Positions 941 through 58,900 of a DNA stretch of 64,000 nt are shown in pieces; the first letter of the stretch is position 1; each line of letters starts with the position of its first letter. The stretch is from Kappaphycus alvarezii (taxonomy: Eukaryota; Rhodophyta; Florideophyceae; Gigartinales; Solieriaceae). Under the pieces are notes generated by a model that was not told where the DNA came from, ran no database searches, and worked only from the letters and a program-made list of their open reading frames with translations. The DNA lies in NCBI GenBank assembly GCA_002205965.3, contig NADL03000513.1, forward strand, positions 1,116,001-1,180,000, read 5' to 3'. The translations under genes and the position numbers were made by a program.

Positions 941-945
941 CAGGG
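941..945. repeat. Target site duplication CAGGG of the solo LTR (one side)
   Basis: CAGGG directly abuts the CA end of the solo LTR and recurs at 2464-2468 directly outside its TG end. Confidence 0.85.
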
Positions 946-1252
946 TGATAGGGTAAATCGTCGGGAGAAGAGATACTCAGAACCAACTACCCCATAAAGG
1001 AGGTTTCGCAAGCGACAAAAGTGCTACCGCGGTATAGTTGAACCAACAAAATGGTGTGGATAAGGAATACAGTTGAGAGGGCTACAAGCAAGTATGGAAG
1101 AGGCAGGGTCTACCACTGATACTCTGTGACCAGCGTAGGAAAAATTTTTCTTGGGTCTCAAGTTGACTCTCAAACTTCCTACTACTCGGGACTTGACTTC
1201 AAGTTGTCTGCCACCTTGCTTGACCTCCACAAGAGGAAGTATTTTACTCAGC

Positions 1253-1259
1253 TTATATA
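1253..1259 (-). promoter_or_regulatory. LTR TATA box (genomic RNA promoter)
   Basis: TATATAA lies about 300 bp before the LTR end on the minus strand. The gypsy LTR has TATATAA at 34625-34631, about 370 bp before its own end, followed by related R-U5 sequence. This is therefore the likely promoter for element RNA, and it lies downstream of the U3 reading frame. Confidence 0.6.
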
Positions 1260-1392
1260 AACTTTTTGACTAACCGTTAAGTCTCAAAGAAACATACTAA
1301 GAACCATAAAATTCATCAAATGGAATCGTGCGAACGAGAAAGACTCGCAGCAGATACTATCAGAAAAATATCTAGATTTCTTTCTCAATATC

Positions 1393-2002
1393 TTAGTTCT
1401 CTAGATCAGAGCCAAACAGTTCCCCCAAAATATCCGTTTTACCCAAGCAGTCCCCACAAATATCCGCGAACGGCTTAGAATTCTCCATTGCCTCCTGCGA
1501 AATATCTAGACGACTGAAGATGCCCCCATCCGGTTCCAGAGTCGGGACCACCTGGTACATATTTTCCAGCCCCTTCCCCACTATTCGAGCACTTTCCAGG
1601 TCTCCATCCCCCTCATCCTCCTCATCCTCCTCTTAACCCTTCTCTCATCTTCGTCAGAAGAGTTAGATATCACGCTTATTCCCTCAGTCTCCCTTCGTTC
1701 TCCATGGGAGCTCCCCCACCGTTGTACACTAATGGCTCCAACGGTTCCACCCAGTTCTCCTCTTCCTCCTCTCCTCTTCCTCTTCTCTTCCTCCTCTTCT
1801 CCTCCTCCTCCTCCTCCTCCTCTGCCTCTTCTGCCTGCTCGAAGCAGTTACGGCGCACCCACTCCCGAACGCGTTCCCGGTCCGACCTTCCACAGTAATC
1901 ATCGTATTTGATTGGACCATGTGCCATCAGGGCCAGAGCGTTTAGGGGATGGCGGCCTCGGGATGACTTGCCGATGATGAGGAATGGGTGGAGGTTGGTC
2001 AT
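1393..2002 (-). pseudogene. LTR U3-encoded acidic protein with SUMO-interaction-like motif, copy 1
   Basis: The first 108 codons (2002-1676) are open. Two frameshifts, both in low-complexity GAG/GAT-rich DNA, separate this part from a 3' part that ends at 1393. The N-terminus begins MTNLHP and has a basic segment with the block RERVREWVRR. A long Glu-rich run follows, then the block EPLVYNGGGA. In the next frame comes VISNSSDEDE, a hydrophobic patch followed by Ser/acidic residues as in SUMO-interacting motifs. The third part has MYQVVPTL, GIFSRLDISQE, ADICGDCLG and ELFGSDLEN at the C-terminus. The same blocks occur in the same order at 20488-21100 and, more eroded, at 33248-33748. The intact ancestor would have been roughly 200-220 residues. 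I do not recognise the family. The indels may be decay or errors in the repeat tract. Confidence 0.65.
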
Positions 2003-2077
2003 GTTGAAGGGGGAAAAAAGGGGTGAGCCGATGGGTAGTTGATGGCGGGGGGTTTCCTTAACGACGTCGATTTCGGA

Positions 2078-2086
2078 CTTTATATA
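2078..2086 (-). promoter_or_regulatory. TATA box of the U3 reading frame
   Basis: TATATAAAG on the minus strand lies 76 nt upstream of the ATG at 2002-2000. The second copy of the unit has a decayed form at the equivalent place (AATGTAAAG before the ATG at 20488). This suggests the U3 gene had its own promoter, separate from the LTR promoter at 1253-1259. Confidence 0.55.
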
Positions 2087-2463
2087 GGGAAACGTATTCG
2101 AAAAGTTTCACGTCCTTGGGCGAAATAAAAATTGTGAAGCAATGCCACAGCTTTGAATTTGCTTGCGATTAGGACAGTAACTAAAAATCTGGTTGATAAA
2201 ATATCGGAACTGAATTTGGAGGACGAAGCGGATCATGAGTTGAAATATTCCTATTCTGAAAAAGGAGGACCAAAATGCTTAAAGAAAAAATAGACATGGA
2301 GTTGCACAGTGAATTTGGATTCATGGGAAAAATCCGTTCCATGATTTTGATCCTTAAAGAAAATTGATGGAAGAGTTGTTTTTTGAGAATCATGGGGCGG
2401 GAGAAGACAGAATGTTGTGGAGAGGACCACTCTCCTACAGAAAGGGCCGTTTCCGTACCAACA

Positions 2464-2468
2464 CAGGG
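2464..2468. repeat. Target site duplication CAGGG of the solo LTR (other side)
   Basis: Second copy of CAGGG, immediately outside the TG end at 2463. It pairs with 941-945. Confidence 0.85.
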
Positions 2469-3244: not shown

Positions 3245-4515
3245 TTAACTGGGACAGCCCCGAATCCGTTTGAACCTGATATTGATCACACTGTCCCCAT
3301 ATTTATACCTGCACTGAAAATTCCTCAATCCCATGCGATCAGTTGCGCAAACTCTCCTCTTCAGCCGTAAGAAATTCGTAACAGTTAATGTGCCGTCAGA
3401 ACCAACCTCAGCTGGCAACTGGGGATCGTGTCGTGATAATATTGCTGTCTGGCACTCTGACTCATCTACTGTCACTTGCGGGCGTGATATTTCCCTCAGC
3501 GCCCTCTGAATTGAGAAAATCACACGATCTTGATCACCAGCTTGCACCAATGCTCCTCCAGTGAGCCTCGTAATGACTGTAGCCTGGCCTGGCCCGGCTC
3601 TAGGTCTACTACCACAACGAAATACGGTTGGCGCATTGGAATCCAATCCTGGCGGCGGAAAGCTGACCGCTACAACTGTCACACCTCTCCTTACCAAAGC
3701 ATCCGCAACGATATTGCGAGTGAGCTCCGGTAAACCCCTGACACAGGTAGGTTCATGCCCGGGCCAATCCCCGAAATATGCAAGGATTTTTGTTGATTCA
3801 TCTCTCCATCCAATTCGATCTAAAGTGGCCACACGATATAGAGCAACTAAATTCGCCTCGGGTCCGTCACCGCCACCCATTGCTCGAAGCCTACTGATGG
3901 CAACACGAATGGAGGTCAGGTTGCGGGTAATCGTGCGTACGTTCTCAAAGCCATCTCCACCGAGTTCGGTTTCATCGCGATAAAAACCCAGTCCAAAGCG
4001 AGTATCCGGATTAGTTCTTGAGAACAGATCAACGAGGCTAAGAAAGCCAGAACGCACGGCAGCAATTGCATTCGTCATAGAACCAGTAACATCACTCAAC
4101 AAGTAGAAGTCAACAGGACCGGAAGTTGGAATACCAGGTCCCTGGGAGGTAATACTCCCGAAGCTGAAAGGGTGATATTGTACCTGAAGCGAAATCGGTC
4201 AGTAACACTCACCTCATCAAAAACCAGAGTATCGCCAGAGCATACCTCCTGTCGGGGAGAAAAACGTTGGTTGGTTGCACAGGAGAAGGAACTCAGGGGA
4301 TCATCTTCAGGGCCGCATGGTTTCATGATGCACCCCATGTCGACCCTGTTACGACAGCGGAGAAAAGCAGGACCAAACTGACGGCGTGTGAGTTGACGAC
4401 ATGTGTTGGGGCAGCCACCAAATGTGAAGGTGCGAGGATTTTCATCGCAGACCCGCTTTTGGGCTAGAGCAGATACTACAAGGAGAAGGGCGTAAACGAG
4501 TGCGAAGCGACTCAT
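3245..4515 (-). CDS. Secreted vWA-domain protein, integrin-beta-like I domain
   Basis: Two exons, 4515-4213 and 4183-3245, join in frame across a 29-nt intron into 413 residues. The start is the ATG at 4515, because it opens directly into a signal peptide: a few polar residues, then ALVYALLLVVSALA. A 40-residue extension to 4635 is open but has no such feature. Residues about 18-100 are rich in Cys. The vWA domain follows with MIDAS motif DVTGS. It then has GGGDGPEANL, IGWR and FGDWPGHEP, which match the style and order of integrin beta I-like domains, where the later Asp and the Pro-Glu pair help bind metal. The C-terminal 60 residues again carry several Cys. A role as an extracellular matrix or adhesion protein is inferred. 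I see no transmembrane segment, so it is probably secreted rather than a receptor. AATAAA follows at 3206-3211. Confidence 0.85.
4184..4212 (-). other. 29-nt GT-AG intron in the vWA gene
   Basis: On the minus strand the segment starts GTGAGT and ends CTTCAG, with TTACTGAC as a possible branch site. Removing it joins codon GAG (4215-4213) to GTA (4183-4181) in phase 0. The signal-peptide exon then runs straight into the residues that precede the MIDAS motif. Without removal the first frame stops just before the MIDAS. The alternative is a frameshift mutation, but canonical splice sites at both edges make an intron more likely. Confidence 0.75.
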
Positions 4516-4635
4516 AGTTGATGATACAGCAGGAGAGAGTGCCAGAAGGGAGTCGGGGAGCGGCAGAAGTAGGTTTGGTTTTAAGTAGCGGCAGTCACCA
4601 CTTACAGCTATGGACAGAATGGGAAAGTATCTCAA

Positions 4636-5525
4636 TAAGGAATCCCATCATTAAGCCATTGCGCATGACCTATTTCAAAGTATCAGATGACGAAGTAAAC
4701 TACCCCATCATCCCCCCCCTACTTCGATATTGAGGGACGTTTTCACCAAACATTGTATCGCATGTTTTATTGATAAAATTGTTAAGGAATAATTACGGAA
4801 GAAGGCAACTTTAACTATGTATGCAAAATTGTACCTTGTTCAGTTGGTACTGAGCCGAGGGGAAAAAAAAGAACCGAGTGAAACCTATAACTTATGACAA
4901 CCATAATTGCATGCGAAATTATTGATCGGTTAGTCGCCAGTGGGTCGAGTGAAACCTACAACTCAGGTATCACTTACCACAGTTCCTTAGTTCAAGTTGG
5001 TGATTTCTAATATCGCTCATTTCAAGCATTTAATTTCAATCTCAATTACTCGGGACCAACCAGATGAGCAGATATTTCATCATGGGAATGAAGGATGAGC
5101 TGTGTACCAAAGCTATTCATGACGAAAGATTGTCGATGTGTGTTGGCAAAACTGGTGAAATCTAGGTATAACAGTTCCCGCCGAAATCCTGTGTTAAGGA
5201 AGAACTACGGTACACATTCCAAATCATTACCGAAATTTGATGTACGGTACTCAAACTTAAATGATATTGCAGAGTAGAAGTGATGCAAACAGGAAGGATC
5301 TTTTCGAGGATTAGAGCTGGGGTTTGTGGGATACGAGAAGTTTCATGGGTTATGGCCGTTTCGAGTAAAGAGATTGACTTGGACTTGGTCCATATCCTTA
5401 CTGTCTCGTCAATAGGGGGAAGCAATGGGTGAGTTTACTGTTGGAGCTCGTCTGACTGAGAACCAGAGGAGCTTGTGGGGAAGGCGTTGTGTAACAGTGA
5501 AGATAGCAGACGAATAAGGAGGAAA
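4636..5525. other. Intergenic, no gene recognised
   Basis: This is the upstream region of the vWA gene and beyond. Open frames are short (under 90 codons) and lack motifs. No clear TATA box was found before 4515; CTTAAAA on the minus strand near 4580 is a weak candidate. Confidence 0.5.
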
Positions 5526-8276: not shown

Positions 8277-9454
8277 CTAACCGATCGAATGCAACTTCTT
8301 TTTCACCCGCTTGTGGTGCGTCGCATCCTCTGACCACAGAGGATGCATTTGAATGTGGATATTAGTCAGCGCAGTACAAAGCTTAAAAACGAAATCGTAT
8401 CGATCCTCCTTCCAGCGCCACTTACTCCCAATCACACCCACAAGATACAAATCCTCCCAAAAACATTTTCACCAATGATCCTATCTGATGCAATTTTAAC
8501 GTTCCCAACCTCCTCTTTCCGAGACAATGAACTATTCCTCGGCTTTTTCTTGAGCTTAATAGCCCTCGTAATCCTCGCAGCCCCTTGATATCCTTTGTTC
8601 ATCATCACAGCCCACAGCCTCGGATACTCACCAGAAAGCGATCCGATATCTTGAATACTACGCTCTGCGGAGGTCTTTCTCAAAGCAGATCTATGAAATT
8701 CTACGTTGCGCTGGAATATTTCGAGATCCGAATCAGATCCTGCGTAGAGCTTGGTATAATTAACAGCAAGCCCATTAGAAAGCACGCTACCCTCCACTTT
8801 GTAGCCGTACAACTTGTGCTTCCCGCTGAAGTACACTTTGCCTTCCTCTTGCCGCGCTTGTTGAAAAGTTACATCCGTCACGTTATCTTGCTGCTGGAAT
8901 GTGCTTGAACTGCTTCCTATCCCTGAGCAAATCTCCAAGATGAAATAGGGACACATTGCGTTCCACCAGGCCTTCATACAGGGGCCAACTCAGCATGTCA
9001 ATAAGCTTCGTCACCATTTTGCAAATGTTGGGACATTCAAGCTGAAAACCTTTGCAATAATTTCCCGTGTTCCTCCATACTCGAGGGTATTAAGCGTCAT
9101 GAGAAGCATGTCCTTTCCACTGTACTTCGATTTTCGACCCGGCGAGACGTTGTAGTTTTCACTGACTATATCAGAGATGGTGCCCAAACTGTTCCGACTT
9201 CCGATGCATCAAACTTTGTCAAGTCTTACATTTCTTTAGACCTCCTGCTTCATAAAAGACGTCAAAAATTGGGCAAGAGGAGGTAGATTCGTCATTTGTG
9301 GGAGGGTTGCCAGAGTTACTGAAGTATTGGAGTTGAGCGTTGCGCTCAACAGCCACATCGGCGAGGATTTGAAGGGCACTTGTGACATGCTTTTGGCTAG
9401 GCACTGGGTCAGGGCGTTATATAAAGGGGAAATGGACTGGGATTGTGTTGACAT
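8277..9454 (-). pseudogene. Harbinger-like DDE transposase, copy 1
   Basis: The best part (8977-8432) reads DVTFQQARQ, YFSGKHKLYGYK and NKGYQGAA, with the GENVFGR block at its end. These are the typical blocks of DDE_Tnp_4-type (PIF/Harbinger, IS5-related) transposases, including a DxTFQQ segment and a GYQG step. After a frameshift near 8431 the C-terminus continues SKWRWKEDRYDFVF, LCTALTNIHIQMHPL and ends KKLHSIG at 8277. Upstream, frames with GRKSKYSGKD and FDVFYEAGG align to copy 2 at 15949-17161. At least four frame breaks or stops show that it is dead. No terminal inverted repeats were found. Confidence 0.75.
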
Positions 9455-20033: not shown

Positions 20034-21215
20034 TGTTATAAGAACAGTCCTTTCCGTAGAAGAGCGGTCCTCTCCACAAACTTCTGTCTTCTCCTTCCCT
20101 GTGAGTTTTCAAAAAAAATTCTTTCCACTAATTTTATTTTACGAACAAAATCATGAAACAAATTTTCCCCTATGAATCCAAACTCACTGTACAACTCCAT
20201 TTCCGTTTTATCTCCCACGATTTTGGTCCTGTTTTCCAAAAAAGAAATCTTTCGACTCGTGATCCGCTTCGTTCTCCAAATTCAGTTCCGATATTTAACA
20301 AGCATATTTTTAGTTATTGCCCTGATTGAATCCAAATTCAAAACTGCGGCATTGCCTCACATTTTTTTCGTCCAAGGTCGTGAAACTTTCCGAAGACTTT
20401 GCCCAATGTAAAGCTCTAAATCGACTTCGTTGAGGCAAACCACCCGCCGTCAACTACCACATCGTTTCACCCCGTCTTTTCATCGGCATGACCAACTTCC
20501 ACCCATCACTCACCATCGCCAACTCATTCCGAGGCCGCCGCCGCCTCAACGTTCTGGCTCTGATGGCCAATGGACCAAGAAAATATGATGGTTATTGTAG
20601 GAGAATGGATCTGTAACGCGTTCCGGAGTGGGTCCGCCGGCACTTCTTCGAGGAGGCAGAAGAGGTAGAAGAAGGGGAGGCAGAAGAAGATGAAGAGGAG
20701 GATGAAGAAGAGGATGAAGAAGAGGACTGATTGGACCCATGGGAGCCACTATTGTACAACGGTGGGGGAGCTGCTGTGGAGAACGGAGGGGAGATTGAGG
20801 AAGTAATAGTTATTTCTGACTCTTCTGACAAGGATGAAGAGGATGAAGAGGATGAGGAGGAGGATGAGGAGGAGGAGGATGAGGAGGAAGGAGACATAGA
20901 GAGTGTTGGAAAGATGGGAAGGGGCGTAACAGTATGTACCAGGTGGTCCCGACGCTGTAGCTGGATAGGGCATCTTTAGTGGTTTAGGTATCTCCCAGGA
21001 GGAAATAGAGAATTATAAGCCGGTCGCGGATATTTGTGGGGACTGTTTAGGTGGAATGGATTTTGTGGAGGAATTTTTTGGCTCCAATCTCAGGGAATAA
21101 GATTTTAAGGAATAAATCTAGATATTTATCATGATAATATCTACTGTTAGTCTTTCTCGTTCACAAAATTCCATTTCATGCATTTTGTGGTACTTTGTAT
21201 GTTTGTTTGAGTCTT
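20034..21215 (+). mobile_element. LTR/acidic-ORF unit, copy 2 (truncated)
   Basis: It starts TGTTATAAGAACAGTCC, like the TG end of the solo LTR at 946-2463, and stays similar through the ORF upstream region and past the ORF end. Similarity fades near 21215, where AT-rich DNA begins. The R-U5 part is missing, so no target duplication can be tested. Confidence 0.65.
20488..21100 (+). pseudogene. LTR U3-encoded acidic protein with SUMO-interaction-like motif, copy 2
   Basis: Starting MTNFHPSL, it runs through RGRRRLNVLALMANGPRKYD, meets a stop, then EWVRRHFFEEAEE, a Glu/Asp run and a second stop. It continues LDPWEPLLYNGGGA, EEVIVISDSSDKDEEDEE and a long acidic tail. In another frame the C-terminus GIFSGLGISQEE, ADICGDCLGG and FFGSNLRE ends at 21100. 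VIVISDSSD followed by acidic residues fits the SUMO-interacting motif pattern. Two stops and one or more frameshifts break it. Agreement with copy 1 is protein-like: conserved residues lie scattered between variable ones. Confidence 0.65.
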
Positions 21216-21239
21216 TCGGGTTATGTAAGTCAAATAATC

Positions 21240-32899: not shown

Positions 32900-34179
32900 T
32901 CCTGAAGGTCCTTTTTCTTTATGAATCTTAAGATAACTACATAACTAAGTTTTTTATTTGATTTTTCAATATCTTTTCCTCTTTTTTCGAATCGAAACCT
33001 TTCAATTCGTGATCCTCTTTGTCTTCAAAATTCAGTTCCGATATTTTGTAGAGCAGATTTTTTGCTTTGCCACTAAATCAGTCAAATTCAAACCTGAAGC
33101 CTAGTCTCTCATTTTTTCCGAAGGGGGCCTGAAATTTATGGAAGAAATGCCCCATTTTAAATTACTACAGCAATTTAGTTGAAGCAAAATTTCTACCATT
33201 AACCATTCCACCAGCTCACCCACACACTCCATTAGTTTTCCAACAACATGACCAAATTTCCCCGATCTTCATCACGGAAAAGTCAACAGGATATCCACAT
33301 CTCATCTACGGCATTGCTTTAGTGTTCAAATGGCTAAGTGACTATGAGTAATATCTCAGGATGGTGGACCGGGAGGGCGTTCGGGAGCGGATTCATCGTC
33401 AATTTGTGAAGGAGACTGAGGATTCTGAGGATTCTGAGGCGAATGAGAGGGGATCTGAAAATGAAGAGGACTGGTTAGATCCGTGAGAGCCATTGGTGCA
33501 CAACTTTTTTCTCGTTATTATGGGGTACAGAGAGAAGATTGATGGTTTTATCGTAATCCCAGACTCTTTAGTTGGGTACGGAGCGTAAATTGAGGGTATT
33601 AAAGAGGTCTTTTAGATCATGGTATGTCAAAGGAGCCTATTTATCTTTGTAAGCCGTTCAAAAGAACTAGTTTAGACTTCCCTGGAGGTATGGATATTTG
33701 CAAGAGATGTTTGGCTCTGAATTCGAGGATAGAAATTGTGAGGATTAGATCTAGATAAATATTGGTAGAGTGTCTACTGCCATTCTTTCTGGGCCACGAG
33801 ACTCCCTTGAATGCATTTCAAGGTATTTAAGATATTCATTTGAGACTTAAGGGCTATGTGAAAATCCATGTAAGCCGAGTATTTCGCCTTCTCTAGGAGA
33901 AATCGAGCAATTTGGCAAAAAGCTTCAAGTGTACTCCCATAAAATCGAGAAGTTGAAAGTCAATTTCTCATCTAATTAGCGTTTCTTTTACGTTAGTCAC
34001 TGAGAATAGCTTTAGACCCTGCCCTTTCTTCATTTATTTGTAGCCTCTTGACCCGCAGTTCTTATCCACCTGTTCTTATTCCCACAGCTATACTTCGGTA
34101 GCCTTTTTGTCGCTTGCAACACCTGCGGTTAAGGATAATTGGTTCTGGGAATCCCATCCTTGCCGATCTATTCCTATAA
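32900..34179 (+). mobile_element. LTR/acidic-ORF unit, copy 3 (eroded)
   Basis: Upstream similarity to copies 1 and 2 includes AATTCAGTTCCGATATTTTG. After the ORF remnant, 34000-34179 follows the R-U5 of the solo LTR: TAGACCCTGCC, TTATCCACCTGTT, CTTTTTGTCGCTTGC and an end CCTATAA where the solo LTR has CCTATCA. The 5' limit is uncertain, and I found no duplication. The complete gypsy element inserted about 200 bp downstream. Confidence 0.6.
33248..33748 (+). pseudogene. LTR U3-encoded acidic protein, copy 3 (strongly eroded)
   Basis: ATG ACC at 33248 keeps the MT start. Later blocks are DREGVRERIHRQFVKE, an acidic stretch, EEDWLDP, EPLVHN after a stop, GFIVIPDSL at the place of the SUMO-interaction-like motif, and QEMFGSEFED at the C-terminus (stop 33746-33748). 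Several stops and frameshifts occur. It is the most diverged of the three copies but keeps the same order. Confidence 0.55.
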
Positions 34180-34388: not shown

Positions 34389-34998
34389 TGTTGTAATGAA
34401 ATTTATCTGAACACGTTTTTGGCATGCTGCGCTGGCTGAGTTGGATGAGCTGGCACTCTTCGCTGGCCGGATACTATTTTTGCATTCCGGGCTGGCTGTG
34501 CTGGCACTGGAATGCAAGTTTTATTTTCTATTATTTTTAGAGGGATGCTTTGCATTGTGCTGTAGCGGCGCAAAGCTGGCAAATGTACTGCGCAGGTGCT
34601 ACAAATTTCCGTAGCTCGGAACTGTATATAAGGAGGGGTACAAGGGAAATTTTAGGAGTATTTACTGACCAGCAAGCCCTAGTGGGACGCTCACCAAACT
34701 AAGTCACACAGAACATAGGGTATGAAGGAAGTTGGCAGACAACTTCAGATCCAGTCCCGAATAGTTGGGAAGTTGAGATTCAACTTCAGACCCATGAATC
34801 TTTTCTTCGCCAGTGCTGGAGCATAGGTGGTATAGCCTGTCCCTTTAGAGTCGGCTACTAGAGCAGTCACTCAGCTTTCACGCCCACTCTTCCCCACCAC
34901 CCGTTAACGTCTACCGTGGCACTTTAGTCGCTCGCAACGACTCTCACCGTGGGTAGATAGTGATTCCCTCTTCCTTCGGCGCCATTTTCAGTCTATCA
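34389..34998 (+). repeat. 5' LTR of gypsy element 2
   Basis: It begins TGTTGTAATG and ends CTATCA, with TATATAA at 34625-34631. The last 470 bp match the 3' LTR with about six differences by eye. The U3 part (34420-34520) differs more, because the GCTGGC-rich repeats are arranged differently. Confidence 0.9.
34625..34631 (+). promoter_or_regulatory. TATA box in the 5' LTR
   Basis: TATATAA followed by GGAGGGG sits about 235 bp into the LTR and is repeated in the 3' LTR. It is the probable start signal for element RNA. Confidence 0.6.
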
Positions 34999-35000
34999 TT

Positions 35001-35016
35001 TGGTACTTCTGTCGAG
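35001..35016 (+). other. Primer binding site
   Basis: TGGTACTTCTGTCGAG lies 2 nt after the 5' LTR. TGG pairs with the CCA end of a tRNA, so the primer tRNA should end ...AAGTACCA. I cannot name the tRNA. Confidence 0.6.
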
Positions 35017-35124
35017 TTTTTATGCAACTGTAGCACGATACTTTGCGGTTTGTTTTTAAAGTCCGGGGCGTGTTTAGTCACGATAATAGCTTTCGAATGA
35101 CGGACCCACCACGCTTACTTCCTG

Positions 35125-35450
35125 TTCAAGGGTTGCAGGGGTGAAGAAGTGGAAGAGTTCTTTTATACGTATGTCAATGTTTTGATGATAGGTAAGAACG
35201 ACGAGGAGAAGGCTTCAATTGTTTTTGCCTATTTGTTGGGCGACTTGCGGGTGAAGTACAAGGCAAATTCTATAACTGGATGGCCCTTAAATGAAAATGG
35301 CCGTGGCTTTAACAAAGATTGTGCTTGGCTAGTCAAAGAATACGTAAATTCGATAGAGTACGATTAGATTATTCGTAGGGCTATCGAAGCTCGTTTAGAT
35401 TTCAAGGATTCGTTGGGTTCATTCGTTAGGGTGTGCAGTCTCTAAGAGAA
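35125..35450 (+). pseudogene. gag: gag capsid remnant of gypsy element 2
   Basis: The frame reads FKGCRGEEVEEFFYTYVNVL, GKNDEEKASIVFAYLLGD and WLVKEYV before a stop near 35366, then IEARLDFKDSLGSFVRV. This is the pattern of Ty3-type capsid N-terminal parts (F-x-G ... F ... EKA ... L-x-G). No CCHC knuckle was found between here and the protease. Confidence 0.6.
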
Positions 35451-36082
35451 ATAAGGTTTTAACGACGAAGCAAAGTACGGGATACTCCGCAATTCAGGGA
35501 CGGCGACAAACGCCAGGCGAACTTCCTTCTTATCAAAGGACCTCGTGCGTTCAGCAATCTGGAATCTAGACCCAAGCTGAAGCTGTTAAAAATGGACAAG
35601 AGAGGGGTCCCGTTAACACGGGGACGGTTTCAGTCGCTCGGGAATCCGAACAAGTTAGCGTTACAAAACGAGACGCTGAGGGGAACATGCTATCGTAAAA
35701 ACCAAGGCTAAAGCAAGACCCGCTAGAATATATCCCAGAGCCCTTGTTACCATGAACAACAAGAATGAATATATTAGCCCCAGAGGTGCCTCCAGCTACG
35801 AAGGCGAAGAAAACAGGGAAAATACGAAAGCCACGGTTTACGACTAGGTATGTGTTAGGATACGTTGAAAAATAAGACCTACTATCCGAGCTCGCTACGG
35901 CTCCATCCTGTATGACTTTCGGACTGCTACTGAGGTGGGATGCCGAAAATGCGAGGAAAGAGTTGAAGAAGATCCTGAGGCCCGAGAAGACTAAAAAGGG
36001 GAAGGAGGCTGCAGTTACCTCGGTGGCTACCGCCAGACGTCTTAAGTTAGTTCCTGTTAAGGTACTATGAAGGGAGTCGCAG

Positions 36083-36327
36083 GTTTTATTTGACTCCGGA
36101 GCATTCCCAAATCTTATTTCATGGGATCTTGTCGAGAAAATGGGCCTTGACATGCTTACGACCACCAGGAGGATAACTGTCGCAGACGCAACCGTATCTG
36201 ACTGCCTCAGCATTATCGAAAAGGTTTCAGTATTCTTTTCAGGAATGAAAGTGAGTTTGGACTTCCTCGCCATTCAAGTCCTTCCTTTTGACACAATTAT
36301 AGGGTGCCCAACAATGGAGCAACTGTA
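36083..36327 (+). pseudogene. Retropepsin of gypsy element 2
   Basis: It opens VLFDSGAFPNLISW with the catalytic DSG, then TVADATVSD (flap) and FDTIIGCPTM (conserved end), and a stop follows. The layout equals the protease of element 1 at 11270-11638. The domain alone is uninterrupted, but it is cut off from the reverse transcriptase. Confidence 0.75.
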
Positions 36328-37063
36328 AGCTTGTATCCACGTAGGGAATCAAAAAGATGTCAGTCCAAATTGACGGAAAACAAGTGAGTCTGCCATTGAA
36401 AGGCGACAGGGGAACGAGTTTAGAGCAATGGAGTGGGACAAATAGCGATGATTTCACATCCAGTTATAATAGCGATGGCTCCGAAGTCACGGTCGAGAAA
36501 GATATAGCAGAATTGGAAGAATAGAAAATTCTGAGTTTCGCCTGCGGCGATGCCAATCCCGGCTACCATACGGTTTGCAATAATACGACGCGACCCGAAA
36601 AAATCTACGAATACGTAGCCTTATGCGAATATCGCACACGAGACATCAAAAGACGCCACATAATAGCAAGAGAAGGCCGCGGGTGCTGCCCACCGGCGCA
36701 CAATGGCTGCTTAAGTACAGATGGCTCAAGAAAAAACACTATGGCGGCAGTTGAGCATATTCTACCCGCAGTTACCAAAAAATCCAAGACAGGACCCATT
36801 GATAGGACCATAGAGGTGATGAGCAAATCGGAAAAATTGGAGGTCATTGATGACGAACTGAAGCACCTTTCTCTCCCTGAAGCAGAGAAAAATTCCTCAA
36901 TACTTACCTTGAACGAACTGATCGCTTGGAGCGCTTGGGACTTATGATTGGACCAAGTCCCTGTCACGCACTCATTTGAGCTGACTAATACCGACCTGGT
37001 TTATCCTAGAAAAAGGCGTCAACCACTGAAATGGGAAGTAATTATAAAAAAAACTCACTAATA

Positions 37064-37740
37064 TGCTACGAAATGGAATTATTAAGCCGACTTCGTCTGC
37101 TTAGTCTTTCCCAGTTGTCATCGTTCCTAAAAGGGATGGTAAGTCGAGGTTTTGTGTAAACTATCGCTTAGTCTACCAACAAATGATCCCTGATCGATTT
37201 CCTTTCCCAGACATGGAAGATATTCTAGAAGAATTAGAAGGAGGGCGCTACTTTACGTCAATAAATTTGTACCCAGGATACTGGCAGATACCCGTCTCTG
37301 AAGATTGCAAATCTATGACGACATTTACCCGCAAACTGGGGGCGTTCAGGGTCGAAGTGATGCCATTTGGTCTTATGAACGCAGCGGCGACATTTCAAAG
37401 GATGATGAATGCAGTATTGAAGGGGTCGCTTTTGTAAGAGTGTATATAGACGACGTGGTGATATTTTCGGAAACTCTGTAATCCCATCTCGACCACATTA
37501 GGGTAGTGATAGAAAGGATCTCGAGGAGTCATTTGAATATCAAACTGAGCAAGTGCTTCTTTGAAAAACCCCTATGAAATTACTTGGTCATGTGGTGGAC
37601 GATAGCGGTATTGAGTTTGATCCAGAAAAGGCCTCTAGAACCAAAAACGCTCCCAGGTCGACTTCCAAAACATAGATGCGTAACTTTCTTGGCCTAGTGT
37701 CGTACTACAGACTTTTTATCCAATATTTCGCTAGGATAGC
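37064..37740 (+). pseudogene. Reverse transcriptase of gypsy element 2
   Basis: Blocks in order: NGIIKPTSSA then a stop, FPVVIVPKRDGKSRFCVNYR, RFPFPDMEDILEEL, INLYPGYWQIPVSE, MPFGLMNAAATFQRMM. After a frameshift at about 37435 come VRVYIDDVVIFS with the intact YIDD box (37443-37454), and then KLSKCFFEK and FLGLVSYYRLFI in further frames. All catalytic boxes are readable but the frame is broken. Confidence 0.8.
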
Positions 37741-37794
37741 CCCCCTTGACACAAATTAACTGTAAAGAACCGAAACTTTGTCTGGGACTCAGAA

Positions 37795-38345
37795 ATGGAA
37801 AACGCTTTAGTCGAGCTAAAACGGAAATTGTGCGAACCACCCGTACTCACATATCCGGACTTCGAAAAACCATTCGTCGTCGAAAATGATGCTTCGGAGC
37901 ATTCATTCAGCGCCGCGTTGTCCCATAGAGATGAAGACGGCAAATTAAACCCATTGCAGTTTGTGAGTCATACAATGAATGATGCCGAAAGAAGGTATAC
38001 AGTTTGCTAGAAAGAGGCCCTGGCTGTAGTGTTCGCGCTAAAAAATTTCCGAGTCTACCTTCTCTCACTAGAGAAATTTGAGTTGATAACAAACCACCCG
38101 GCCCTCAAAACTGCGTTTAAGAAGAAAGATGTCCATAACTGTTTGGCGCGATGGCTGACTTATTCGCAGAATACCGATTCAAAATCATTTATCGGCCGGG
38201 AAAAATCAACCAGCCAGCAGACTTCCTTTCAAGATCCAAGGATCCAAAAGGAAACGTCGCAGAAGCAGGAAAACATAATGCTGAAGTACCCATCGTTGAT
38301 ACGGCTGGATCGGCTGACCTCGAAGCCAAATTAAACCCCATTTAA
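37795..38345 (+). pseudogene. RNase H of gypsy element 2
   Basis: PDFEKPFVVENDASEHSFSA keeps the catalytic Asp in NDAS. FVSHTMNDAERRY follows, then a stop, EALAVVFALKNFRVYL, and LITNHPALK, where the normal T-D-H reads T-N-H. The end YRPGKINQPADFLSR is in another frame (38151-38345). Confidence 0.75.
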
Positions 38346-38499
38346 TTTCGATTTCTGACGGGTTTCGAGATCAAGAAAATTGGTGTGGATCACAGGGACT
38401 GGATGAGACGAAACCAAAAAGTATTTTCGGTATGGGAATGAATGCTATTTCGGTTGACAAAAGAAGGTCCCCGGCTGGTGGCTCCAATAGGAAAAAGAA

Positions 38500-39500
38500 G
38501 CCAGATTCTGTGAACCTTCCATGATGAATTAGGCCATTGGGGCCTTAGCACAACGAAAAAATCCATCGCGGAAAGATTTTGGTGGCCGGAAGTGCACAGA
38601 CACATCTATAACTTCGTGAAAAGTTGCAATAGTTGTCGATAGTTCATACTAGTCCAAAAATACAAACCACTATCAGTATTCCTATTACCGGACCATTTGA
38701 GACATTCTCTCTGGATTTCGCCGGCCCATTCAAGAAAACCCCTTCTGCGAACAAATACTCTCTCATTGTAGTTGAACACCGGACGGGATGGCCATCTGCA
38801 ATGCCGGGTAAGGACGCCACCGCCAACGCAGTCATTGAATTTATAAGAAAGGAAATAATCGAGGCTTTTGGGCTGCCCACGAGAATCATTTTGGACAACG
38901 CGCTTTGCTTTACGGCCACATCTCTTCCCAAATTTATGAGGAAAAACTGAATTAATTGCAAAACGGTTCTGGCCTATTCCCTTATGTCTAACGAGAATGA
39001 AGAGAGGATGGTAAGAGCAGTCAAACCGGGCATATCAAGGATCATCTCGGGAAACGACGCCTCCTGGGAGGACTCTGTGACAAAGGTTTTGTACAGTTAC
39101 AGGGGTAGAACAGGCAGCTACGGTTGCTCTCCGTTCGAGTTAATGTATGGAAAGGCCCCTGGAATGGTACAAAAGGATGTTGAAGTTGCTAATATGGAAT
39201 CTAAGGGAAGAGAGACGGAGCTCCTAGCCTCCGAAAACTGGAGTTGCAACCGGGCCAGAAAGGGGAAACAAAAATGGGTCCCCTGAACTACCACGGACAT
39301 TTTCTGTCGGGTCGAAGTTTCTGTTCATTCATGTTAATGGCTTAGAACATACTGTGAAGTGGCCCGCATTCCTTACGAAGTATTCCAATCCCTTCTTAAT
39401 AACGAAAGCGAGGCACCCATATTACAAGCTCTGCTCAAGTTCTGAGAAGAGGTCGAGGAGGGCTATTCATGCACGACGACTCATCCTGTATCATGAGAGA
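38500..39500 (+). pseudogene. Integrase of gypsy element 2
   Basis: The zinc finger has FHDELGHWGLSTTKKSI and CNSCR. The core has FSLDFAGPF (Asp), RIILDNALC (Asp) and ENEERMVRAVK (Glu). A stop near 38948 separates the second Asp from the Glu. The C-terminus (39354 on) reads WPAFLTKYSNPFLITKA and SRRAIHARRLILY, the same ending as element 1. The D,D,E residues are present though the frame is broken. Confidence 0.8.
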
Positions 39501-39608
39501 ATCGAATATCTTTGCATGATTAGCACCTACAATGTCCCAAGGAATTTACTGGTTCATAAAAACATGATGCTCAGAATTGGCGGAAGTCGAGCAGGGGAAT
39601 TGATTGGT

Positions 39609-39998
39609 TTATTGACGAGAGAAGATGCCGAGACTCAAGTGATTCTACATTTCTTCATCAACATAGCACTTACTTACAGGGCTCTGATGGGTCCATTTCT
39701 TTCTGGGCACGACCACAGTTTACTGTTAAGGGTCTTTTTTTCGTTTCAAAACGGAAAGTTTGCGGATGCTGAACCAGAATTTGGAGAAGCTATATAGAAC
39801 TATGCTATGGGGTGTTATGGCGCAGTTGCGCTTGGGGAACCGTCGCAGAATTACTTCAACGTAATTCGAAACGCATTTTGGTTTCTGGATCGCACTTTCA
39901 CGTCAAAAATTTGGGGCTATAAACTAGCCCCAGATGTGGAGCATAGGCTGGTCTCTTACCCGCTATTGGATTCATACGTTCCGCTCCATCAGAATGGG
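39609..39998 (+). pseudogene. Extra region after integrase, module A
   Basis: This continues the integrase C-terminal frame. It reads LTREDAETQVIL, GPFLSGHDHSLLLRVFFSF and EPEFGEAI, then one stop at about 39795, NYAMGCYG, YFNVIRNAFWFLDRTF and ends SYVPLHQNG. It aligns with module B at 40241-40621: 22 of the first 45 residues are identical by hand count, and spacing is kept to the end. The region lies where envelope genes sit in some gypsy elements, but I see no signal peptide or fusion motif. Function unknown. Confidence 0.55.
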
Positions 39999-40240
39999 AA
40001 CGCAAAAGAGGTCAAAGAACCCCCTGAGGAAGTAATGATGGCCCGAGGCGGGTCTTCGGAAGGGTCCGGGCACCAGGGAAGGTGCCCGCTCTGAGGGAGC
40101 CACGGAACGGTCTGGACACCACCAGAGGTGCAAGTGAACCTCTCTCAGGCGAAGCTTCTAGCCCCGCATCCATAATCCCACTCTACAACTATACACAACA
40201 CAAAGTCGCTAAGAAGAGGGTTTCTGCATAGCTTCGCGAC

Positions 40241-40621
40241 CTTACACATGACGATAACGATGCTCAAGTCATTTTTTATTTCACGGTGAGTATTTTTCTC
40301 TGTTTCCGGTCGCTCAACGGAGCGCATCTGTCATACAACGATGCATTATTGTTGATGCGTATATTCTTCTCCTTTATGCACCTGTTCCTACGGGATCTTC
40401 CGGACGAGTTTTCATATCACATTTATTATTTCACTGTGGAAAAGTTAGGTTCTTTTAAAGAGGAATAATGTACTCGACTCTACCTTGCCATCATCAAGCC
40501 GATATATGAGGCCATGAAAAGAATTGAATTAACCTTAACGAGAACGTACTTCTTGGAGCACCATATTGGTAATATTCTACTCCTTTATCCACCTGACAGG
40601 CTTCACATTCCCGAAAAAGGC
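40241..40621 (+). pseudogene. Extra region after integrase, module B
   Basis: In a different frame from module A, it reads LTHDDNDAQVIF, GAHLSYNDALLLMRIFFSF and LPDEFSYHIYY, a stop near 40466, then LYLAIIKPIYEAMKR and ends PPDRLHIPEKG. The stop is at a different place from that in module A, so the two modules decayed independently after an old tandem duplication. Confidence 0.55.
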
Positions 40622-40676
40622 TGAGGGCATCGGAAGAAGAAACGGAAGATCAATGACGAGCTGGGAGGTTCGTCTT

Positions 40677-40687
40677 GAGAAAGGGGG
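40677..40687 (+). other. Polypurine tract
   Basis: GAGAAAGGGGG lies two bases before the TG of the 3' LTR, the standard position for priming of plus-strand DNA. Confidence 0.75.
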
Positions 40688-40689
40688 CA

Positions 40690-41303
40690 TGTTGTAATGA
40701 AATTTAACTGAACAATGTTTTGGCATGCTACGCTGGCTGTGCTGTCGGCGCTAGCACTGGAATGCACGTTTTATTTATTTATTTTGGCATGCTGCGCTGG
40801 CTGTGCTGGCACTGGAATGCAAGTTTTATTTTCTATTATTTTTAGAGGGATGCTTTGCATTGTGCTGTAGCGGCGCAAAGCTGGCAAATGTACTGCGCAG
40901 GTGCTACAAATTTCCGTAGCTCGGAACTGTATATAAGGAGGGGTACAAGGGAAATTTTAGGAGTATTTACTGACCAGCAAGCCCTAGTGGGACGCTCACC
41001 AAACTAAGTCACACAGAACATAGGGTATGAAGGAAGTTGGCAGACAACTTCAGATCCAGTCCCGAATAGTTGGGAAGTTGAGATTCAACTTCAGACCCAT
41101 GAATCTTTTCTTCGCCAGTGCTGGAGCATAGGTGGTATAGCCTGTCCCTTTAGAGTCGGCTACTAGAGCAGTCACTCAGTTTTCACGCCCACTCTTCCCC
41201 ACCACCCGTTAACGTCTACCATGGCACTTTAGTCGCTCGCAACGACTCTCACCGCGGGTAGATAGTGATTTCCTCTTCCTTCGGCGCCATTTTCACCCTA
41301 TCA
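40690..41303 (+). repeat. 3' LTR of gypsy element 2
   Basis: It begins TGTTGTAATG and ends CTATCA. Its U3 holds two tandem copies of a block with GGCATGCT, CGCTGGCTGTGCTG and GCACTGGAATGCA. The 5' LTR has a different arrangement in the same place. Confidence 0.9.
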
Positions 41304-55929: not shown

Positions 55930-58900
55930 CCTTTTGCATCGTAGCTTAGACCATCGTTCAAGCTGCTACGTGGGATCATTTTTAAAACGGAAATTATTTT
56001 CTCCAGTGTTGTGAGCATTTAAAATAGTATGCACTGGAAATCCAGACGCTTCGTAAGGCAGTAATTCCTTCGATCCAAATCTTTTATAGTAGAGCTCCAA
56101 ATCTTTTTGGTCGTAGGATTTCAATACAGTCTAAAACAGCAGCTCAATTTCAAGAGCACCATATTATTGTCCCTACAAGAAGTCTTGTTTAAAGTTTCAG
56201 GCTGAATATAATTGTTTTCGCACTTGACAGGAATATGTTTGGGAGATTATATGTTTTCTATTTTACATGCACGTACGTAAAATATTCGAAGCTTCAATTT
56301 CAGACGCATTTTTGTTTGTAGTGACATCATCAGGGGTTTCTTCAGTTATTTTCGGATTAAATTTTTCATTTCATAAATATTCAAGCAATCATATTTTTCT
56401 GATTTTTCATCCACAGAATTATCCATAGATTCATCCATTACATTATTTTCTTTTTGAACTTAATATGCGGGTTCATTCTATTACACTGAATGGCGATATC
56501 TTCAACTGCTGTATTTATAAATTTTCCATAGAATCCAGATACTGTCACGATAAGAGATTTTACGTCGAATTTCAAAACAATTCTAGAGATGATCATTTTC
56601 GTCTTTTGATTTCTAATAATCCCGCAAACTCACTAAAATTAATAGCAATATCGGTCACAGATTTCGATTTCAGGATGAAATAAAATTTACTCTTAGGGAT
56701 GAGTACATTATGAGCATAAAGTTACTTGGAAAGAGATAGGGGACCAAAATTATTGATAGGACGAATGTGATATATTGCTTTTTAATATGAAGATACAATA
56801 TACTTCCTATATAATCTTTTTATATTTGAAAATTCCGAGCAAAAAGAATAGCGTTCTTAGCAGAGGGATCATAAATTTTCAGTCGTATGCAAATCTCTCC
56901 AATTTTTGTATTTCAGTTCAATTGAATTTTTTATGAAGGCGAGAACCAGTAGCGCAAAAAATTTCTCATTTTTTCAGAGATGGTGTTTTAAAGCTTCGTT
57001 CTTGAACGCCCGATCTTCAATTATATTATAGATTGCCAAAGTACTGTTAACCAGATAGCCTCAAAAGAATTACCAAAAGGTTCCATTTTAAGAGAGCACT
57101 TCTGCACATTGTGCACTTTCTGAGTCCGTAATGTGAGACATATAAAACTATCCACAAAGAAGTGATCCACACCACAAAACGTTCAATCCGCGAGATCAAT
57201 TTACGATATGTATAACTTTTGGATACAGCATGAAGGTTGGATGTATTTTTGAAATCGAAAGATTTGCATGTGTCAGTAATAGTCGATAAATATTTCTTGC
57301 GGTCCTCTTTCCTTGTAAAGTTTCGGTTATTAAACATTTTCATCATAATTTGAGTTACAGCGTACATTTTTGTGGAAATTAACAACAGTTTTCTATTTCT
57401 CCTCCAAGACTTATTTTCAATTGTATTGATAAAGCTGGAGCAATTCGTAGATAGAAATGATTTTCGACAGGGGATGAGGATTGTATAAATTTATTCCCAT
57501 GTATGCAACAATGATGACTATGGTCCATAACCGAATAAATAATTTGAATACTTTAAATTCAATCGATTTTCGACAGGGGATGAGGATTGTATAAATTTAT
57601 TCCCATGTATGCAACAATGATGACTATGGTCCATAACCGAATAAATAATTTGAATACTTTAAATTCAATCGTCCGCCATAGGAATAATATGCGCTTTTCT
57701 TAAGAAATTTCTTCCAATCACCAACTGTGATGATCAATTAACCACAAGATGTTTTATTTTGATTTCATTTCTATTATCTGAAATATCGGATAAGAATATT
57801 GAACCGATCATTTTTCGTTTCTATCTTGAGAGGTCTCCATTTACATGTTTCCATGGAAGATAAGTCTTTATGGACCCAAGAAGATTATTTTGAGATTCAT
57901 TCCTGTTCGGTAGAATAAATAATGTTTGTTTAAAAATGAGTTTTACTCTATGCCGTGCCTTATACTCAATTACCGGACATGAATGAAGTTATTTCGGTGA
58001 AAAATCAAGTATAATTTTAGCCATATGATATATTATGGGGTTCTTTTTCTCTGATATTTTCTATGTTTTCATTATAGACGAAAACCCTTTAGATAGTTTT
58101 TACCGCCCTTGCACTTTCATTTTGCATAAGAATAATATTCATATTATCAACATCTATCGCATATTAGTTTGGCGTTAACAGCTGCGTATTATTCATAGGG
58201 CAATGATTGCAGTGTCTTATTCTCTAATACCTTGTTTTCTCCATATGTAATACCTGCTTGATTTGAGAATTCATATTTGATCAATATCATTCGTTTTTGT
58301 TTTATGTTTTGAATTATCACATGCGAGAATAATAGATGATATTCCGAATATTTGATTAATTGCAGATAATTGCAGAACTTTTACTTTTTATAAATCAGGT
58401 TCCTGATCATTCTTCAAGGAAGGAACAGCAAAAAGTGTACTCGCCGATTTGTATCCACTTTAGACTTATCCAAGAGTGAAAAAGATACTAGTGCTACTGG
58501 TAAATTTGAAGAACCAATAGAAGCACGTAATTAGGGTATTTGAGCATCAAAAGGGGATTAAAAGTTTTGAAGGACTCATTACAGCTGCGTGTTTTGAGAA
58601 GATTACGAAAAAAGTTTTAACTTACTCGATGTTGATTATGAAGGATTTAATCTTCGAACACCGTTAGAAATAGCTAGTGTACCATTTAAGACCAAATTTT
58701 GTCGTGTAAATTTTTACGCAAATATGAATAGGTCATCAATATAATTGCGATCGTAATACAAAAATTTGTTCAGCCCTACTAATCTCATTATAATTAGATC
58801 CTTGTAATTCATAATGGACATATTTGCATTTTTTTACGGTATCTAAATATTTTCTTGAAGCCTTTTACCATTGATCCAGTGAGCCGCTCGGAAATATCAC

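Follow-up and report, generated by a model that had tools for sequence, protein, structure and literature searches.

Positions 946–2463 of the analyzed window, a 64,000-nucleotide stretch of the genome of the red alga Kappaphycus alvarezii (C509:1116001-1180000; 336,021,096 bases in 884 contigs), very probably represent a solo LTR of a Ty3/gypsy-type family that carries a genuine gene inside its U3. The anatomy, a gene placed in U3, is well supported; the action of its protein we infer. On the minus strand the unit reads TGTTGG...CCCTATCA, flanked on both sides by CAGGG. The copy of the gene present in the window is itself frameshifted and dead, its C-terminal part (VPTLEPDGG...GSDLEN) lying in a different frame from the N-terminal part. 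The window contains the following features:

946..2463, minus strand: solo LTR of type A, 1518 bp, with TG...CA ends and a CAGGG duplication
941..945: left target-site duplication CAGGG, directly outside the unit
2464..2468: right target-site duplication CAGGG, directly outside the unit
1393..2002, minus strand: remnant of the LTR gene, frameshifted, with the N-terminal part from 2002 and the C-terminal part in another frame
1676..2002, minus strand: 108-aa frame, the N-terminal part of the gene
1393..1560, minus strand: 55-aa frame with the conserved C-terminal domain
2079..2086, minus strand: TATA-like box 5' of the gene, TATATAAA, starting 84 nt before the ATG
1252..1259, minus strand: main LTR TATA box, 3' of the gene, TATATAAG
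1098..1221, minus strand: R/U5 stretch also present in both LTRs of the element at 34389-41303
20034..21223, plus strand: second copy with 78% identity, lacking its 3' part, with a gene remnant from 20488
32900..34179, plus strand: third copy, much older, with a broken frame
34389..41303, plus strand: related full element without the gene, with LTRs at 34389-34998 and 40690-41303 and the duplication ACATC on both sides

The TG...CA ends and the CAGGG duplication given in the original prediction are seen as claimed, at 941-945 and 2464-2468. The recurrence of the same ends and of 5-bp duplications at other loci places the unit far beyond chance. The acidic frame predicted within the unit is present at 1676-2002 on the minus strand, preceded by the expected TATA-like box at 2079-2086, but it is not a complete gene: its 108 residues are the N-terminal part of a frameshifted one. 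Two further copies had been proposed in the window, and homology holds for both. In the first, it continues to 21223, equivalent to position 1271 of the unit and immediately ahead of R and U5; therefore, the proposed boundary at 21215 is not an LTR end. The second aligns in two pieces with 66-75% identity, is much older, and has a broken frame.

To place the unit among its relatives, we searched the source genome with it. This returned at least 43 matches with 40 of 5895 candidates scored, so that copy numbers are lower bounds. Window aside, eight loci among the matches listed cover nearly the whole unit at 85-88% identity, and most of the remaining matches extend from the LTR 3' end to unit position ~1177 and then continue into a different 5' end, TGATGTGCGC. 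The LTRs are divided here into type A (~1.5 kb), type B (~1.37 kb) and type C (~1.57 kb), the last reading TGTTAGGCGC...CCCTATCA. Exact 5-bp duplications flank 13 of 30 loci in a first set, for which TG and CA ends were required, and 15 of 30 loci at unshifted ends in a second set obtained with a type-B query, where five more differ by one mismatch. Both sets minus nine repeats give 51 distinct A/B loci, 23 of which have an exact 5-bp duplication at the TG/CA ends. Solo LTRs of type C are found as well, with CAGTC (L067) or CAGGC (L072) on both sides. Two pairs of loci (L004 and L005, L053 and L054) display an identical insertion with identical flanks on two contigs, as if haplotypes had been kept separate in the assembly.

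The reading of the A/B units as LTRs draws on homology and on the gag found behind five B LTRs, and is probable on these sequence grounds. Four loci (L035, L046, L051 and L059) have a common 3' flank, 90-96% identical over ~1.5 kb. This flank starts with TTTGGTACTCTTG, and the protein it encodes is Gag-like, with two zinc knuckles; a fifth locus, L030, is alike. A primer-site-like stretch and gag thus lie behind 5 of the 51 A/B LTRs, all five of type B, and gag is never found behind the eight distinct type A loci. With as many as two mismatches allowed, the combined pattern of LTR end and primer site is found 1155 + 1089 times, versus 0 + 1 for the control; being common to several LTR families, it gives no count of gene-bearing elements. 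The related element at 34389-41303 has LTRs of 610-614 bp that lack the frame, each of which is 73% identical to the R/U5 stretch of the unit over 124 columns. Its 5' LTR is followed by tttggtacttctg, resembling the TTTGGTACTCTTG found behind gag-bearing B LTRs, and its body encodes protease, RT and integrase in that order, with protease and RT above the Pfam cut-off and integrase below it.

A complete gene-bearing element with the frame in both LTRs, which the original prediction called for, was found for type C. Five same-strand pairs of frames lie 7536-7592 bp apart (C496, C519, C681, C792 and C492; the four besides C519 at 7536-7586 bp), and four of the five have no stop in either frame. 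At the C519 pair the outer end of one LTR reads CAATG directly followed by TGTTAGGCGC (51 bases read), while the other LTR ends in CCCTATCA directly followed by CAATG. This delimits a full element of ~9.16 kb (about 64755-73916), with a body of ~6.0 kb and the gene open in both LTRs. Four loci (L068, L069, L070 and L071) have a common internal region that ends in CCTAAGTCCGGGGGG before the LTR. In L071, gag is found behind the LTR as well; its alignment with the gag of L035, over 1055 columns, gives 98.6% identity. Gag and a primer-site-like stretch behind the 5' LTR and a purine run before the 3' LTR are all present. Full relatives with LTRs that begin only after the frame, the case named in advance as contrary, are absent from the gene-bearing family, whereas the LTR of the element at 34389-41303 does lack the frame.

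These observations bear on the alternative that the unit is a short, independent transposon carrying a gene of its own rather than an LTR. Most A/B copies are indeed single units with duplications or unrelated flanks, as such a transposon would be. However, gag directly follows five units, the R/U5 stretch is common with paired LTRs, and type C has a unit at each end of the element with one duplication outside both, as well as a G-run that precedes the unit in the internal region. The paired units with CAATG outside rule out the short transposon for type C, and overall we regard it as extremely improbable.

For the LTR reading of type B, the second LTR of a full element was sought in several ways. 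The mate of L035 was not found among 40 scored matches, and the B-protein matches listed include no pair of frames at ~7.5 kb. B partner LTRs are absent from the downstream stretches examined for L035 (L061), L046 (L062 and L064) and L051 (L063), which hold a copia-like fragment (by eye), an integrase-like stretch and distant LTRs 71-79% identical to B. Among 62 listed hits (97 in total) to a G-run ahead of the B LTR start, 16 have AGGGCG, counted by eye; this greatly exceeds what an equal share among the permitted variants would give and hints at the 3' ends of B elements.

The gene-bearing elements also contain a third internal frame after integrase (L068:1-984; 328 aa, start cut), which has no Pfam match and consists of two related halves, 33% identical over 115 aa. 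Similar frames are present in the window element 34389-41303, at about 39228-40468.

In related copies of the LTR gene the frames are ~200-224 aa long and share a conserved C-terminal domain. When copies are aligned at the ATG, four of type B (L016, L017, L025 and L026) remain open for 200-205 codons; many other B copies, including most of those listed, are broken by small indels or stops. The B protein as a query gives 151 matches, many with at least one stop, as expected of an older family. A longer acidic frame is found in a distant C-like LTR downstream of L051 (L063), and its protein as a query gives at least 207 genome matches (150 candidates scored of 10681). No stop interrupts 69 of the 93 listed near-full-length matches, a hand-compiled sample biased towards good matches.

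A Ka/Ks-type comparison of the frame across copies, suggested at the outset, reveals purifying selection. Between C (L072) and B (L017), over 122 codons with the acidic tract left out, pN/pS is 0.33 in frame (bootstrap 95% interval 0.23-0.45), but 1.04 and 1.04 when read one or two bases off; between L072 and L026 it is 0.37 in frame versus 0.95 and 1.08 shifted. The Nei–Gojobori dN/dS of L072 and L017 is 0.15 (0.10 in the C-terminal part), and six C-B or C-like-B pairs range over 0.13-0.24, values that are rough because synonymous sites are near saturation between B and C. Closer pairs give 0.22 (L072-L065), 0.26 (L072-L066) and 0.63 (L065-L066, with only 13 differences), and two B copies, L017 and L025, give 0.44. 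Purifying selection between the types, specific to the reading frame, argues for a real gene in U3.

Mutations segregating among the copies show the same tendency. In 43 B copies, mutations seen once amount to 283 nonsynonymous and 85 synonymous, versus 50 and 31 for those in at least three copies (p = 0.007). The contrast is weaker when eight A copies are added (310:102 seen once versus 82:41 in at least three copies, p = 0.064), and for A and B mutations in at least four copies the ratio is 42:30 (p = 0.004). By region, the A and B contrast is found in the C-terminal part (p = 0.021) and is missing from the N-terminal 58 codons (p = 0.81). Eight off-frame or non-coding controls for A and B mutations in at least three copies give p values of 0.31-1.0.

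The same data speak to the possibility of a chance frame, in which the open state of some copies would be a coincidence of a long U3 containing GA-rich and CT-rich stretches, and no protein would be made. In its central part the frame is an acidic tract of low complexity, and many copies are broken, as a chance frame would have it. This does not account for the frame-specific conservation outside the acidic tract, the synonymous excess among shared mutations, or the proportion of listed relatives that lack stops. The shifted-frame controls largely refute the chance frame, and we consider it very improbable.

A genuine gene in U3 leaves the question of its promoter. The TATATAAG box, which all 10 of the copies examined have 313-315 nt ahead of the LTR end and which is exact in 39 of the 51 A/B copies, is the usual LTR promoter and is placed after the gene. 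Upstream of the gene, 41 of 51 A/B copies have a TATWTAAA box at a distance of 60-110 nt from the ATG, and in the other 10 it is not found; the window's TATATAAA is one version, and four B copies examined read TATTTAAA. The TATTTAAA box is also present 108-117 nt before the ATG at seven of eight C-type or C-like loci. The U3 is ordered as a variable 5' part, the TATA-like box, a gene of ~200-225 codons and the main LTR TATA box, followed by R and U5. In a full element each of the two LTRs carries the gene, which solo LTRs retain. Transcription of the gene may start from the upstream TATA-like box and end in R, in which case the product could perhaps be made from solo LTRs too. The alternative route, as for the sag gene of mouse mammary tumor virus (MMTV), would be from the 3' LTR of the element RNA. 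Expression by this route only, with silent solo LTRs, is a possibility that we hold tentatively: the main TATA box lies after the gene, so its RNA carries the gene near the 3' end, but the retention of the upstream TATA-like box in most A/B and C-type or C-like copies speaks against it.

The encoded protein is strongly acidic, with 60-96 acidic versus 12-18 basic residues in 11 frames of 198-224 aa (two incomplete). An N-terminal part, which judged by eye probably holds an amphipathic helix, is followed by the low-complexity acidic tract and then by the C-terminal domain MDQVVPTLEPDGDIFSSLDISQE...PFADICGDCLDSMDILEELFGSDLEN, where acidic residues alternate with bulky hydrophobic ones, an arrangement that presumably resembles acidic activation domains. 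An extra motif in A and B, EGVIVISDSSDED, resembles a SUMO-interacting motif; a pattern of this kind occurs in one of the three frames of 40 of 51 A/B copies, and is absent from the C frames aligned. No Pfam family scores above the cut-off for the frame proteins, and a PDB sequence search gives nothing below E 0.03, most hits falling within the acidic tract; the C-type query in part of these searches was L072:1465-2121, which starts four codons before the ATG and misses the final residues. A single scan of viral contigs found no relatives of the C-type protein.

The composition would allow the acidic protein to act on its own LTR or on host chromatin. Regulation of the element's own LTR transcription in the nucleus is the role we favor, yet one that we put at somewhat less than an even chance. 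About evenly balanced is the alternative that the protein serves some other step, such as copy number, the choice of integration site or chromatin, or the evasion of host silencing; the long acidic tract and the SUMO-interaction-like motif fit contacts with chromatin or the SUMO pathway too.

The gene-bearing U3 has a history that differs from that of the adjoining sequence. A comparison per 100 nt of L035 (B with gag) and L071 (C with gag) gives 42-62% identity in the first 700 nt, 75-76% in the C-terminal part of the gene and 52% just 3' of it, versus 78-92% in R, 97% at the LTR end and 97-100% in gag. Five gag-bearing and two solo B LTRs are ~77-98% similar to C-type or C-like LTRs within 320 nt of the LTR end; beyond that point, at the TATA box, the similarity falls to 55-70%. 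Since the solo B LTRs show the same drop, the common R/U5 is general. One B LTR with gag, L051, lies 6035 bp from the C-like LTR of L065 (C488, about 1701800-1710792), a normal body length. The two LTRs are of different types and their outer bases differ (GCTAC and ATCTG), so L051 may be a recombinant, and the pair is perhaps a single recombinant element with two different LTRs.

An old and diverse U3 with its gene, joined to R/U5 and gag that are nearly identical between types, suggests that U3 modules move from one element body to another through template switching or DNA recombination. It is conceivable, if on present evidence rather unlikely, that these elements maintain under selection a regulatory gene whose U3 can be exchanged as a module. 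Owing to the place of the gene in U3, solo LTRs would then be scattered promoter-plus-gene units that may still produce an element regulator once the body is lost.

The closest parallel is MMTV, where PMC3026287 describes the accessory gene sag inside an exceptionally long LTR of about 1.3 kb. Both systems have an accessory gene in U3, and the LTRs of the Kappaphycus family are of ~1.37-1.57 kb; unlike the red-algal element, MMTV is a vertebrate retrovirus, so that host and element type differ, and the red-algal protein is acidic. Pfam includes a superantigen model, and the red-algal LTR protein has no Pfam or PDB match that would relate it to known superantigens. The gene thus occupies a place similar to that of sag, but is not a member of the superantigen family.

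The family resembles Ty3/gypsy elements in its 5-bp duplication, TG...CA LTRs and Gag with two zinc knuckles. The Ty3/gypsy order is protease, RT, RNase H and integrase; the related element in the window has frames for protease, RT and integrase in succession, with the integrase below the Pfam cut-off. The gene in the LTR sets the family apart, as does an additional frame located 3'-most in the body. Foamy virus and Tax/Tat-type regulators are small regulators of their own promoter, with genes that are not known to be similarly confined to U3. The foamy virus internal promoter and transactivator and the Tax/Tat-type proteins are like the red-algal LTR gene only in its suggested action on its own promoter. 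In Podospora, according to the abstract of PMC10787394, variants of the element crapaud are distinguished by the 5' half of their two LTRs, comparable to the U3 differences among types A, B and C; the opening of that abstract mentions no LTR gene.

Open frames have been reported in some plant retrotransposon LTRs. With these and with most subscription papers outside its scope, a search of titles and abstract beginnings in the open literature, which found no gene in a Ty3/gypsy LTR, is weak evidence of absence. LTRs are usually viewed as regulatory DNA. With a selected gene in U3 of this family, loss of the body by LTR-LTR recombination spares the gene, and solo LTRs may code for protein. Outside retroviruses, the family provides a case for testing why accessory genes come to lie in LTRs; it is also a reminder that LTR masking in annotation can hide genes.

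Three minor features of the window lie apart from the LTR family. On the minus strand, frames for a protein whose von Willebrand A domain is integrin-beta-like (Pfam Integrin_beta, E 1.7e-9) are found at 3245-4647, a DDE_Tnp_4 transposase fragment at 8432-8989 on the same strand, and at 57459-57671 a segment of 107 bp is duplicated in exact tandem.
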